DNA of 64,000 nucleotides, from the NCBI GenBank assembly GCA_903918375.1, contig CAIXED010000061.1, positions 39,226-103,225 of the forward strand, in the 5' to 3' direction. Below the pieces are notes generated by a model that saw only the letters and a program-made list of their open reading frames with translations, was not told where the DNA came from and made no database searches. Positions 7,401-41,900 of the stretch are shown piece by piece. The position numbers and the translations under genes were made by a program. Position 1 is the stretch's first letter; every line of letters starts with the position of its first letter. This DNA is from an uncultured Pseudomonadota bacterium (GTDB lineage: Bacteria > Pseudomonadota > Gammaproteobacteria > Methylococcales > Methylomonadaceae).

Positions 7401-8117
7401 TTAGAATTTGTAACCAACACCAACGGTTAATGTATATGAAGATCCGCCAATATTGCCTGAATGTTGGGCACCATCACTTGTTGTGGCGTGAACAGCGCTT
7501 TTGGAATAGTCATACCAGTTGCCTTCGCCAAAACCATATAAGCCACCAGTAATAATTTGTTTGTAGCCTAAACCAAGCAAATATCCGTTCAGGTTGGCCT
7601 TTCCTACTGACTGATTGTTATCTCGTGTATCTATTGAATTAACAGTTTGCCCTGTGTAACCCGCCTTAAAGTAAACCAATTTCTCATCATCAATCACATA
7701 GCTAGGCGTAATAAAAACACTGTATCTATCCGATGTTTTTGTTGCTAATTCACTGGTTCTTAAGCTTCCGTCTTTTAAACAACTATCGTTGCTAGTGACA
7801 CAGTTAAAGGTTGATGAATTAGTGGTTCTGTTGAATGCCGACCAATCACCACCAATGCCTAATACAAATTTGGGGGTAATTGAAAAATTGTAGCCAGCGC
7901 CAAGAATCAAGGCCACGCCATCATTAGACATATCCTTAACTTGATTACCTCCATAAAGCTTTCCATCATTTTTAATTGTGGTTGCATTTTTTAAATCGGC
8001 CTGATTGCTTTCGTAGCCAGTACCAATTTGCGTATAAAACCCTTCAAACGCTGATTCAGCAACCGCTTGCCCAGAGAATACAGCAGCAATTGCCGTGATT
8101 AATAATGTGTTTTTCAT
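7401..8117 (-). CDS. Outer-membrane beta-barrel protein (porin-like)
   Basis: Signal peptide (MKNTLLITAIAAVFSGQAVA), alternating strands, terminal aromatic (GVGYKF). Confidence 0.8.
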   Translation of the reverse strand: MKNTLLITAIAAVFSGQAVAESAFEGFYTQIGTGYESNQADLKNATTIKNDGKLYGGNQVKDMSNDGVALILGAGYNFSITPKFVLGIGGDWSAFNRTTNSSTFNCVTSNDSCLKDGSLRTSELATKTSDRYSVFITPSYVIDDEKLVYFKAGYTGQTVNSIDTRDNNQSVGKANLNGYLLGLGYKQIITGGLYGFGEGNWYDYSKSAVHATTSDGAQHSGNIGGSSYTLTVGVGYKF

Positions 8118-8156
8118 AAAAGCCTCTTCAATTTATATGTCAAAAGTTGATGTAAT

Positions 8157-8169
8157 TTGTTGATAACAA
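8157..8169. promoter_or_regulatory. Palindrome TTGTT-GAT-AACAA upstream of XRE gene
   Basis: Perfect 5-3-5 inverted repeat in the divergent promoter region. Confidence 0.35.
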
Positions 8170-8209
8170 GATAGACACATAGGATTCTGTCACAGCTGTT
8201 GCTTTGAAT

Positions 8210-8224
8210 CAACAATATTTGTTG
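8210..8224. promoter_or_regulatory. Palindrome CAACAA-TAT-TTGTTG upstream of XRE gene
   Basis: Perfect 6-3-6 inverted repeat ~19 bp before ATG 8243. Confidence 0.4.
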
Positions 8225-8242
8225 TTTTATGAGGCAACATTT

Positions 8243-8638
8243 ATGGCTGATACAAGTAATTTACAATCTGTTTTTCCTAGTGAAGCCGTTGATTCTTTAG
8301 AGATTCGGTTGGCTAGAAACATATCAACTCGTCGGAAAGCTTTAGGTTTGACTCAAGCTCAGCTTGCAGAAAAACTCGGGGTTGAGACTGAAACTTTGTC
8401 TCGATTTGAGCGAGGAAAGCACTTGCCGTCTTTAGCCACGCTTGAGCGTTTGGCGGGATTGTTACAAGTGACAGTGAGTGAGTTGTTGGCCGAGCAACCT
8501 AAATTGGCGGATGATGATGCCTTGGTGATTTCGTCGTGGATTGCCCAGCTTGATGAGGAAGATAAACTTTTTGCTCGTACTATTTTGAAACAATGCTGCG
8601 AGCATTTAGAAGCAAAAGCCAAAGCACTAGAATCGTAG
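8243..8638 (+). CDS. XRE-family HTH transcriptional regulator
   Basis: RRKALGLTQAQLAEKLGVETETLSRFERGKHLPSLATLERLAGLL. Confidence 0.9.
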   Translation: MADTSNLQSVFPSEAVDSLEIRLARNISTRRKALGLTQAQLAEKLGVETETLSRFERGKHLPSLATLERLAGLLQVTVSELLAEQPKLADDDALVISSWIAQLDEEDKLFARTILKQCCEHLEAKAKALES

Positions 8639-8762
8639 ATTTATGGTGATTGATACTAATCCATCAAAATACCGTCATATTTATCATGAAAAACAAAGAC
8701 CTCAGAGACTTGAGCACCCAGCCTAGAACAGCAGGATGAATTAAAATACTGGTGGAGTGGCT

Positions 8763-9302
8763 TTAATCGTAATGCACTAAATCATAAGGCAAACTCGGCT
8801 CACGACCGTCTAACAAAGCGGTCAAAAATGCCCAAAATACATCAGCAGACGGTGGGCAGCCGGGCAAAAAGTAATCGACTTTAACCACTTCATGAATCGG
8901 TCGCACTTTGTCCAACAATAATGGCAACTCAGGATCGTTAGGAATTTGTGGATTCTCAACCCCGATGCCATCACGATAAGCTTCTAATAAACACTCTTCT
9001 AGGGGAATGTGGTTACGCAGCGCAGGCAAGCCACCGTTAATCGCACAAGCACCAACAGCCACCAAAATTTTGCAGTTTTTACGAAACTCGCGCAGGACAT
9101 GGACGTTTTCTGAATTACAGACGCCACCTTCAATTAAGCCAATATCACAAGGGTGGCAGTGTTCAATATCGGTTAACGGCGAGCGATCAAACTCGGCGAC
9201 TTCTATCAACGCCAGCAAACGCTCATCCAAATCCAAAAACGACATATGGCAACCAAAGCATCCAGCCAATGAGGTCGTCGCTACTTTTAATTTATTTGCC
9301 AT
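8763..9302 (-). CDS. hoxY: NAD-reducing [NiFe] hydrogenase small subunit HoxY
   Basis: CFGCHMS, GGVCN, GACAINGG, PGCPPSADV cluster ligand motifs; start chosen at MANKLKVATTS. Confidence 0.93.
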   Translation of the reverse strand: MANKLKVATTSLAGCFGCHMSFLDLDERLLALIEVAEFDRSPLTDIEHCHPCDIGLIEGGVCNSENVHVLREFRKNCKILVAVGACAINGGLPALRNHIPLEECLLEAYRDGIGVENPQIPNDPELPLLLDKVRPIHEVVKVDYFLPGCPPSADVFWAFLTALLDGREPSLPYDLVHYD

Positions 9303-10002
9303 GTTCTTGCTCCAAAGCGACTTCGTCAATGCTGTGATGATCATAAATCCGCTCGCCAATCGGGGCTTGATAAGCGGTATGTTTAATCAAAATAGCGCCA
9401 GTAGGACAGATATGCGCGGCACTGTCGTTCACATCAATGTCACTGTCTTTCAGTTGACCAGTAGCGGAATTGATAATTAAGCGTTTATTAATCCCGCGCC
9501 CGCTGATGCCAAATACATTTTTACCGTCTTTTTCTCGGCTGGCACGCACACATAAATTGCAGAAAATACAGCGATTGTGATCAATCAAAATCTCGGGATG
9601 CGAGGCATCGACGGCTCGGTGCGGGTAAAAGTGGGGGAAATGGTTGTCGAGCATATTTAACTGATAGCCAACCGCTTGTAATTGGCAATTGCCGCTTTTT
9701 TCGCAAGAAGGGCATAAATGATTGCCTTCCACAAACAGCATTTGGGTAATCTTGCGACGGTCTTGTTTAAGTTGTTCGGTATTATTTAAAACCGCTTGCC
9801 CTTCTGCCGCCGGAAAGGTGCAAGCCGAGCAATTGCGACCGTTGACATTCACCGTACACAATTTACAGCTGCCATGCGGGGTATAGCCGGGTTTGTGACA
9901 TAAATGAGGGATATAAACACCGGCAGCAGTGGCGGCTTCGATAATGGTTTGGCCTTCGCTAAATTCAATGCGTTGACCATCGATAGTTAAACTAGCCATC
10001 AT
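9292..10002 (-). CDS. hoxU: NAD-reducing hydrogenase diaphorase subunit HoxU
   Basis: 2Fe-2S N-terminus (HLCHKPGYTPHGSCKLCTV), NCQLQAVGYQL, CIFCNLCVRA. Confidence 0.93.
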   Translation of the reverse strand: MMASLTIDGQRIEFSEGQTIIEAATAAGVYIPHLCHKPGYTPHGSCKLCTVNVNGRNCSACTFPAAEGQAVLNNTEQLKQDRRKITQMLFVEGNHLCPSCEKSGNCQLQAVGYQLNMLDNHFPHFYPHRAVDASHPEILIDHNRCIFCNLCVRASREKDGKNVFGISGRGINKRLIINSATGQLKDSDIDVNDSAAHICPTGAILIKHTAYQAPIGERIYDHHSIDEVALEQEHGK

Positions 10003-11777
10003 TCCTCCACTTGCTGTAAATGTGCGGCGGCATCGTTGCGATGAGCCAGCTGTCGAGCGGTTTCTAAAGCAGCGTCCAAATCAAATCCCGGCTCGTAGCT
10101 AATGTTCTTGAGTTGCTGTTGATACAGTTCGGGGTAACGCTGCAAAGTCGTCAAAACCGGATTGGCGGCGGTTTGACCTAAACCGCAATGGCTGTAGTTT
10201 TTCAGCAATTGCGAAATCGCATCCAATTCCACCACATCGCCAGCAGAACCATGACCATTAGCGATTTTATCCAGCTGTTTTTTTAATAAGGAAGTACCGA
10301 CTCGGCATGGGGTACAAAAGCCGCAGCTTTCATGGGCAAAAAAGTCGGTGAAATTTTGGACGATGTCGAGAATCTTGCGTTGCTGATTGAAAACAATAAA
10401 AGAACCACCGGTAGCTAGGTCTTCAAAGGCAATTTGGCGATCAAATTCCTGATTAGAAATAAAACAACCCGACGGGCCACCAATCTGGACGCCCAACACA
10501 TTTTTAGCACCGCAATCGTTGAGTATCTGAGCAATGCTTGTACCAAAGGGATATTCATAAATTCCCGGCTTTTCACAATCGCCACTAATGCTGAGAATTT
10601 TGCTACCAGCCGATTTTTCGGTGCCGACATTAGCAAACCATGCGCCACCGTTAACCACAATCGCTGCAGCGGCTAAAAAGGTTTCGACGTTGTTGACTAC
10701 GGTGGGTTGATTCAAATAGCCGCAACTAACCGGATAGGGTGGTCGATTACGAGGAATACCCGGTTTACCTTCCAAGGATTCAATCAAGGCTGATTCTTCG
10801 CCACAAATATAAGCGCCAGCACCTAAGCGAATTTCAATATCAAACGCCAATCCTTGATTAACAATATTGTCACCCAATAAGCCTTCGTCACGACGTTGCT
10901 GCAAAACCGCGTTGAGTTGCTGGTAAAGATACAGATATTCACCACGCAGATATAAAAAACCTTGTTGAGCGCCAATAATCGCTGCACAAATCGTCATGCC
11001 TTCAAATACTTGGTCGGCATAACGATGCAATAAAACCCGATCTTTAAAGGTGCCAGGCTCGCCTTCGTCGGCATTACAAACCACATAGCGTTGCTGACTG
11101 GTTTCTTCTGCACAAAACTGCCATTTTTGGGCGGTTTTAAATCCCGCGCCGCCTCGACCGCGTAAATCTGATAAATCAATTTCTGCCAAACTGGCGGTTA
11201 AGCCTTTGGCGAACATTGCGTATAAGCCAGTCGATTTTTCAATCGGTGCACTGAGCAATAAATCCACTTTGCAGATTTGATCGGCAACGCTAAATAATTC
11301 TGGCGGCCATTCGCTGATAGGTTTTTGCGCTTCGATGAGCGCTGTAATAGCATCAATGCTGGCATAACTTAGATTTGGCAGGGCATAGCCATTGATTAAA
11401 GCCGCCGGGCCTTGATCACAAAGCCCAGTACAAGAAGTGTTATTTAAGCTGACTAAACCATCGGCACGAACTTGGCCTAACTTTAGCTGCAGTTTTTGTT
11501 CTAAATAAGTGGTTAAATCGGCCTTACCCAACATGCGATCAGTAATCGAGTCGCTGAGTAAAATCTGATAATGGCCTTGTGGTGTTAAATGAAAAAAACT
11601 GTAGAATTCGGCAACAGCGACAATTTGAGTTATGGGGATTTTTAATTCATCAGCCAAATAATCAATGGCTTGAGGAGGAATATGCTGATATTGCTGTTGT
11701 ATTTTTCGCAGTATTTCTAAAAGCCTCTGTGGTTGATAGGCTATTTCGGTTAGCGCCGCTTGCATAAAGTTTTTCAT
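9999..11777 (-). CDS. hoxF: NAD-reducing hydrogenase subunit HoxF (NuoE-like + NuoF-like domains)
   Basis: Thioredoxin-like 2Fe-2S N-domain; LRGRGGAGF, NADEGEPGTFKDR, GAGAYICGEESALIESLEG, ESCGFCTPCRVG. Confidence 0.95.
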   Translation of the reverse strand: MKNFMQAALTEIAYQPQRLLEILRKIQQQYQHIPPQAIDYLADELKIPITQIVAVAEFYSFFHLTPQGHYQILLSDSITDRMLGKADLTTYLEQKLQLKLGQVRADGLVSLNNTSCTGLCDQGPAALINGYALPNLSYASIDAITALIEAQKPISEWPPELFSVADQICKVDLLLSAPIEKSTGLYAMFAKGLTASLAEIDLSDLRGRGGAGFKTAQKWQFCAEETSQQRYVVCNADEGEPGTFKDRVLLHRYADQVFEGMTICAAIIGAQQGFLYLRGEYLYLYQQLNAVLQQRRDEGLLGDNIVNQGLAFDIEIRLGAGAYICGEESALIESLEGKPGIPRNRPPYPVSCGYLNQPTVVNNVETFLAAAAIVVNGGAWFANVGTEKSAGSKILSISGDCEKPGIYEYPFGTSIAQILNDCGAKNVLGVQIGGPSGCFISNQEFDRQIAFEDLATGGSFIVFNQQRKILDIVQNFTDFFAHESCGFCTPCRVGTSLLKKQLDKIANGHGSAGDVVELDAISQLLKNYSHCGLGQTAANPVLTTLQRYPELYQQQLKNISYEPGFDLDAALETARQLAHRNDAAAHLQQVEE

Positions 11778-11810: not shown

Positions 11811-12272
11811 ATGACTCATTCGAAAAAATCTGTTTTTAAGTCCGCTTTAGATTTTGACGGTCGGCAAATGGCTGTTTGTTTAGCAATGATTGCCGAACAA
11901 AATAAGTTATTAGCCATTGTTAAAACGGCTTTGCCAAGCGATATTGCTAAGTCAGTCAATCACTGCGTCCGCTCTAAGCAACGCTTGCTACTGTATACCG
12001 AATCGGCATCTTGGGCATCACAACTTCGTTTTTTCCATCAGGCCATACTAAACAAATTAGCCGAAACTGAATATAAAAATATTCAGACTTTACAGGTAAA
12101 AATTCAACCGAAATTATTTGAGCAAAAGTCAGTCCGAATTGCACAACTACCCTCTGCAGATAATATCCGCATGATTCAAGAGCAAGTTAAACACCAAGAA
12201 CAGGATGAGTTAAATCAGGCTTTATTGCGTCTAAGCAATACATTGGAAAAGCGGTTAAAAGCTAATCGCTAA
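11811..12272 (+). CDS. dciA: DUF721/DciA-like protein
   Basis: LPSDIAKSVNHCVRSKQRLLLYTESASWASQLRF resembles DciA fold; located beside lpxC as often seen. Confidence 0.6.
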   Translation: MTHSKKSVFKSALDFDGRQMAVCLAMIAEQNKLLAIVKTALPSDIAKSVNHCVRSKQRLLLYTESASWASQLRFFHQAILNKLAETEYKNIQTLQVKIQPKLFEQKSVRIAQLPSADNIRMIQEQVKHQEQDELNQALLRLSNTLEKRLKANR

Positions 12273-40859: not shown

Positions 40860-41900
40860 TCAACAAATCCTCGGCAACTGCTCGCCAACCGGCCAATCCA
40901 CCATCCGCCGGCCGCCAAACGCGGTGGTCATTTGCACGAAACAAAGTGTGTCGGTGATGACTTCGCCAATCATCGCGGCATCTTGACCTAAAGGATGTTG
41001 GCGCATCGCATTCAGCAATCGCTCAGCCGCCGCAGCTTCGCAAATACAAACCAATTTACCTTCATTGGCGACAAATAAAGGATCAAGCCCAAGAATTTCA
41101 CAGGCGGCTTTGACTTCGGCTTTCACGGGGATTTTGGCTTCCTCAATCACCATGCCAACACCGGATTGTTGCGCTAGTTCGTTTAACACGGTCGCCAAAC
41201 CACCTCGGGTTGGATCGCGTAAACAGCGGATGGCATTGGGAGCGACTGCCAGCATATCGGCAACTAAACCATGCAAGGCTGCAGAGTCGGAAACAATCGC
41301 GGTTTCAAATTGCAGGTTTTCCCGTCCAGCCATGATGGCAATGCCATGATCGCCCAAACTGCCGCTGACTAAAATCTTACAGCCGGCTTCGGCACGTTCG
41401 GAAGAAATATCTATGTCATCAGCCACCACACCAATACCGGTAGTAGTGATAAACACGCCATCGCCTTTGCCGCGTTCAACCACTTTGGTATCGCCAGTAA
41501 TGATGGGCACACAGGCTTTATTCGAGGCTTGAGCCATACTGATAACGATTTTTTCTAAATCAGCCAGCGGTAAACCTTCTTCGAGAATAAAACCGGCAGC
41601 TAAATACAAAGGTTTGGCGCCAGACATGGCGACATCGTTGATAGTGCCGTGGACCGCTAATGAACCAATATCACCACCAGGAAAAAATAGCGGTGAAATG
41701 ACATGACCATCGGTGCTAATAACTAAGCGACCAGCAGGCGGGGTGAATAAGGCTTGGTCGTTGCGCTGATTAAGCAGCTGATTGTCGAAATGTTTGATGA
41801 ACAGGGCATCAATCAATTGCGCCATCGCTCGTCCGCCACCACCGTGGCTGAGATCGACTTTGCCGTTGATTAAATCAAGCGGGGCAGAAAAGGGATTCAC
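40860..41900 (-). CDS. hypE: Hydrogenase maturation protein HypE
   Basis: LSHGGGGRAM, DPTRGGLATVLNELA, C-terminal PRIC with terminal Cys. Confidence 0.96.
   Translation of the reverse strand: MNPFSAPLDLINGKVDLSHGGGGRAMAQLIDALFIKHFDNQLLNQRNDQALFTPPAGRLVISTDGHVISPLFFPGGDIGSLAVHGTINDVAMSGAKPLYLAAGFILEEGLPLADLEKIVISMAQASNKACVPIITGDTKVVERGKGDGVFITTTGIGVVADDIDISSERAEAGCKILVSGSLGDHGIAIMAGRENLQFETAIVSDSAALHGLVADMLAVAPNAIRCLRDPTRGGLATVLNELAQQSGVGMVIEEAKIPVKAEVKAACEILGLDPLFVANEGKLVCICEAAAAERLLNAMRQHPLGQDAAMIGEVITDTLCFVQMTTAFGGRRMVDWPVGEQLPRIC

Follow-up and report, generated by a model that had tools for sequence, protein, structure and literature searches.

The hoxFUY operon in the window (the whole stretch of 64,000 nucleotides analysed here) is, with a probability of about 0.93, the diaphorase and small-subunit half of a complete and ordinary group 3d NAD-linked [NiFe]-hydrogenase from a small-genome Methylomonas, in which an ancestral hoxFUYHW operon was broken between hoxY and hoxH by a chromosome rearrangement. 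The original prediction had noted that no hoxH adjoins hoxY and had proposed that this gene lies elsewhere or was deleted, or that HoxFUY acts as a diaphorase for some other partner. The same genome has hoxH and hoxW intact and side by side on another contig (C19), so that the first of these proposals holds and a deletion of hoxH is refuted; with this separate intact hoxH the surprising reading, in which the hydrogenase would lack its catalytic subunit, also falls.

The hoxFUY operon

The three genes form a tight operon on the minus strand (window positions 8763-11777), and all of them are open and full length. hoxF (9999-11777) codes for the NAD(H)/FMN diaphorase subunit with an N-terminal NuoE-like domain (Pfam Complex1_51K, 2Fe-2S_thioredx and NADH_4Fe-4S). 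Its product has 5XF9_A as best PDB match (E 9e-148), in an alignment that takes in the ESCGFCTPCRVGT stretch, and both Pfam and this alignment place an FMN/NAD domain, the NuoE-like domain and a 4Fe-4S site in the protein. hoxU (9292-10002) encodes the diaphorase Fe-S subunit (Fer2_4, NADH-G_4Fe-4S_3 and Fer4_15), which contains 2Fe-2S and 4Fe-4S sites and matches 5XF9_B best (E 1e-72); its hit to the NCBIfam HoxU model (E 4.9e-53) lies under the model's own cut-off. hoxY (8763-9302), which overlaps the end of hoxU, codes for the hydrogenase small subunit (Pfam Oxidored_q6; best PDB match 5XF9_C, E 5e-72), and its proximal-cluster cysteines, in the CFGC, GAC and PGCPP motifs, align with those of this chain. 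The three subunits are intact, as originally predicted, and their cysteine motifs align with chains A, B and C of 5XF9.

Divergent from hoxF lies a dciA-like gene (11811-12272, plus strand; Pfam DciA), part of an ancestral ftsZ-lpxC-dciA-hoxF neighbourhood. At the other end, hoxY now adjoins a convergent XRE/HTH_3 regulator gene (8204-8638, plus strand). As this gene ends at 8638, the distance to hoxY, first estimated at some 124 bp, is exactly 124 bp (8639-8762), and this gap would be the breakpoint and the former site of hoxH. No piece of hoxH or hoxW, whole or broken, was found in the window (best tblastn E 0.31 and 0.099), and the gap has no similarity to the hoxHW region, so that it holds no hoxH remnant, in agreement with the original prediction that neither a HoxH start nor a remnant stands beside hoxY. 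The junction is far from the contig ends: the contig of the window (C61) continues for ~48 kb past hoxY on one side and for ~55 kb on the opposite side.

hoxH, hoxW and the maturation genes

The genome of the window (2.79 Mb in 82 contigs, 99.79% complete, with a contamination estimate of 0.36%) contains exactly one [NiFe] large subunit in a PF00374 search, the hoxH gene on C19. Its product of 499 aa is intact, carries the CxxC motifs LCGICPVSHH and DPCLSCATH, with a C-terminal extension of 35 residues past the DPCLSCATH processing site, and has 5XF9_D as best PDB match (E 4e-176). Directly after it, and overlapping its end, lies an intact hoxW, the gene of the maturation protease. The hyp genes are complete from hypA to hypF, although scattered over three separate places: hypABCD on the window's own contig (C61:11062-13472), hypE inside the window (40863-41861, minus strand; TIGR02124, 466 bits against a cut-off of 251.6) at 29 kb from hoxF, and hypF on another contig (C35:29771-31975). 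The genome-wide search that the original prediction had recommended thus recovered an intact hoxH and hoxW and all the hyp genes, and because of this the enzyme is complete in genes; by every sequence criterion tested, the set is that predicted for a single, complete NAD-linked [NiFe]-hydrogenase of group 3d. The one-operon arrangement is usual in group 3d, although not defining for it, and here the genes are divided between C61 (hoxFUY) and C19 (hoxHW). As hoxH is absent from C61, a distance of no less than 48 kb would separate it from hoxY on a shared chromosome; C19 itself is a contig of 5 kb.

We infer expression, formation of the HoxFUYH complex and reaction direction from the genes. Two transcripts would supply one complex: HypA-F would build the NiFe site, HoxW would trim HoxH, and HoxH would then join HoxY and HoxFU, allowing electrons to be exchanged between H2 and NAD(H).

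Ancestral order and rearrangement

Four genomes of the same genus (G094, G126, G169 and G154) carry ftsZ-lpxC-dciA-hoxFUYHW in one piece, and the dciA-hoxF neighbourhood is also common to G120 and G110. hoxH directly follows hoxY in these near relatives, e.g., in G169 (L228) and G154 (L229), and in G169 the operon is followed by a pentapeptide-repeat gene and a permease, the same two genes that come after hoxW on C19. Because undivided relatives show both contexts, it can be deduced that hoxFUY stayed with dciA and that hoxHW kept its old downstream neighbours. The synteny comparison suggested with the original prediction therefore shows the undivided order in relatives and the split in sisters. 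According to the proposed scheme, a chromosome rearrangement would have broken hoxFUYHW between hoxY and hoxH, leaving hoxFUY beside dciA-lpxC-ftsZ, while hoxHW, together with its former downstream neighbours (the pentapeptide-repeat gene and the amino-acid permease), would have landed behind an rRNA operon of the same orientation, immediately after its 5S gene and terminator.

The sequence that now follows hoxY differs even between close sisters, being XRE in the window genome and G174, DUF4389-DUF2333 in G153 and G164, and dinB-DUF4389 in G172, which implies that this spot was rearranged more than once. The XRE gene beside hoxY is probably a later arrival, because the sister G153 has DUF4389-DUF2333 in its place. 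The variation among very close sisters can be followed at L219:3073-8503, L225:1-2341 and L223:1-1285 in comparison with window positions 7401-8638, with XRE plus an outer-membrane-like gene, DUF4389 or dinB after hoxY. A single inversion between the hoxY/hoxH junction and a site behind the 5S gene (5S/X) was also considered and rejected: it predicts an rRNA operon beside the dinB-DUF4389-DUF2333-ycgL-guaB block in undivided relatives, and none was found there. A blastn search with 5S against that block in 16 further Methylomonas regions gave no match in any of them, and an Rfam search of seven block regions (six relatives and the window genome) detected no rRNA; more than one rearrangement is therefore needed.

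Alternative explanations

The absence of hoxH from the window would also be expected if the gene had been lost and HoxFUY were a stand-alone diaphorase or paired with another partner, as the original prediction had contemplated, but we consider this very improbable. Besides the intact hoxH and hoxW on C19 and the full hyp set, both halves of the system (hoxFUY and hoxHW) are under strong purifying selection, with dN/dS values between the window genome and its sister G153 of 0.011 for hoxH, 0.018 for hoxY, 0.041 for hoxU and 0.111 for hoxF. Moreover, in a survey of 151 Methylomonadaceae genomes, a full hoxY was found in 108, always with hoxH (108/108), and none of the 151 had a full hoxY without hoxH. 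The converse, hoxH without a detected hoxY, occurs in 7 of the 151, six of which are 73-88% complete; G013 and G059, with hoxY fragments only and no full hoxH, were left out of the carrier count. The low dN/dS and the co-occurrence of hoxY and hoxH favour a working HoxFUYH over a free HoxFUY diaphorase.

An error of assembly or binning, by which the true genome would have hoxFUYHW together or C19 would be a contaminant, is similarly hard to credit. C19 is a short contig that stops in rRNA, where assemblies typically break, and a misassembly at 8.6-8.8 kb had been considered at the outset; nevertheless, two separately assembled sisters, G153 and G174, also carry the halves on different contigs, G174 with hoxY-XRE as in the window and G153 with hoxY-DUF4389 and 23S-5S-hoxHW, and tens of kb of other sequence follow hoxY. 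Because sister assemblies show the same split, misassembly is strongly argued against. Contamination fits poorly with the GC content of C19 (0.454, versus 0.442 for the window), with the low contamination estimate given above and with the grouping of HoxH and HoxFUY in one and the same genus clade. The different places of hoxFUY and hoxHW could also reflect a horizontal transfer that restored hoxHW after loss of the original hoxH, the least probable of the alternatives: the HoxH and HoxFUY trees both put the window genome inside Methylomonas, and in G169 hoxHW belongs to an undivided operon and is followed by these same neighbours, the pentapeptide-repeat and permease genes. A split of the ancestral operon, with both halves retained, remains the preferred explanation.

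Recurrence of the split in Methylomonadaceae

The statement that hoxH follows hoxY in known clusters holds for 78 of the 108 relatives with a full hoxY, in which the two genes are within 5 kb, but splits are frequent in Methylomonadaceae: in 4 genomes they share a contig but lie 71 to 755 kb from each other, and in 26 they are on different contigs, although some of these 26 are uninformative owing to contig ends and the term split rests partly on draft assemblies. In most of 20 split genomes that were fetched, the several kb that come after hoxY contain no hoxH. Mapping of split versus adjacent states on trees gave 9 changes, or 10 with more Methylomonas included, in counts that take related genomes as data points. 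Recurrence is thus well supported, with about ten changes, a number that is not firm. Every split case checked breaks between hoxY and hoxH, and hoxF, hoxU and hoxY stay together. The recurrent break separates the two members of the catalytic HoxYH pair, rather than the diaphorase module from the hydrogenase module. In methanotrophs, a hoxH 'missing' from beside hoxFUY does not show that the hydrogenase was lost, and searches for gene clusters will overlook complete enzymes because splitting of the operon is frequent. Recurrence of the break at a single junction also offers a natural series for testing the weight of operon linkage in the assembly of a multi-subunit metalloenzyme.

Another Methylomonas genome, G173 (L226, L227), has a mirror-image split, with hoxHW directly after lpxC and dciA-hoxFUY together on another contig, and represents an independent break within the same genus. 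In undivided operons of Methylomonadaceae, the hoxY-hoxH gap stands out as loose, with a median of 80 bp, an upper quartile of 499 and a maximum of 2413, against medians of 5-7 bp at the other three junctions; outside the family, the median hoxY-hoxH gap is 47 bp. Inserts often occupy the space between hoxY and hoxH in undivided operons of the family (L118, L121, L122, L150, L153 and others). Among them are toxin-antitoxin genes, e.g., a YoeB-type toxin accompanied by an antitoxin-like gene, as well as a component of an addiction module, a PIN-domain gene, an aminotransferase-like gene and a HicB/HNH-like pair. In some genomes (L088, L100-L106 and L148, including Methylotuvimicrobium buryatense and the fetched g22 genomes), hoxH has no recognizable adjoining hoxW, which may be elsewhere or replaced. 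G089 contains two short hoxH-like pieces (L107:7514-7694) ~1.7 kb upstream of its intact hoxH, which may be what is left of another copy of the gene.

The rRNA operon beside hoxHW

On C19, a 5S rRNA gene is followed by a terminator-like hairpin and then by hoxH in the same direction (L003:4741-5057). The sister G153, whose HoxH is 99% identical to that of the window genome, has 23S-5S-terminator-hoxH-hoxW on one contig, and 5S likewise adjoins hoxH in the more distant Methylomonas G172 and G164, which brings to four the genomes with hoxHW directly behind 5S in the same orientation (the loci besides that on C19 are L218:1-776, L222:7666-7863 and L224:1-178). A four-gene tree unites these four genomes in one well-supported clade with G174, whose hoxH contig starts within the gene. 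Across the four 5S-hoxH spacers, no conserved promoter motif was found beyond the terminator, and scans for consensus promoters near hoxF and near hoxH did not exceed the matches expected by chance.

A speculative and rather doubtful idea is that the hoxY/hoxH junction is a recurrent point of fission and insertion in Methylomonadaceae because hoxHW is transcribed on its own there, or easily comes to be, and that in this Methylomonas clade hoxHW might be partly expressed by read-through from the rRNA operon. If read-through were true, the supply of the catalytic subunit would be tied to ribosome synthesis and hence to growth rate, and the clade allows a test of whether a hydrogenase subunit is expressed in step with growth.

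Relation to known systems

The four chains of the NAD-reducing soluble [NiFe]-hydrogenase of Hydrogenophilus thermoluteolus SH (group 3d, HoxFUYH; PDB 5XF9/5XFA) are the best PDB matches of all four subunits. The likeness extends to the conserved Fe-S and NiFe cysteines, and the window genome has the HoxW protease and the Hyp set; in contrast, the genes described here lie at two loci, hoxFUY and hoxHW. A split at the same hoxY/hoxH breakpoint has been described in cyanobacteria, where the Hox organization named Group 3, found in two genomes, keeps hoxE, hoxF, hoxU and hoxY together, away from hoxH and hoxW (PMC5186783). It differs in its separate hoxE, whereas the methanotroph split recurs in several lineages, one of them a clade with hoxHW after an rRNA operon. 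Within a partial coverage of the open literature, no paper on split hox operons in methanotrophs was found, and a search for hox genes of Methylotuvimicrobium gave nothing. The novelty is modest, and consists of the frequency of the split in Methylomonadaceae and of one Methylomonas clade with hoxHW directly behind an rRNA operon. For lacustrine Crenothrix, of the same methanotroph family, the presence of the same enzyme (hoxFUYH), and no split, has been reported, and a role in fermentative H2 production was proposed for it (PMC5563964).
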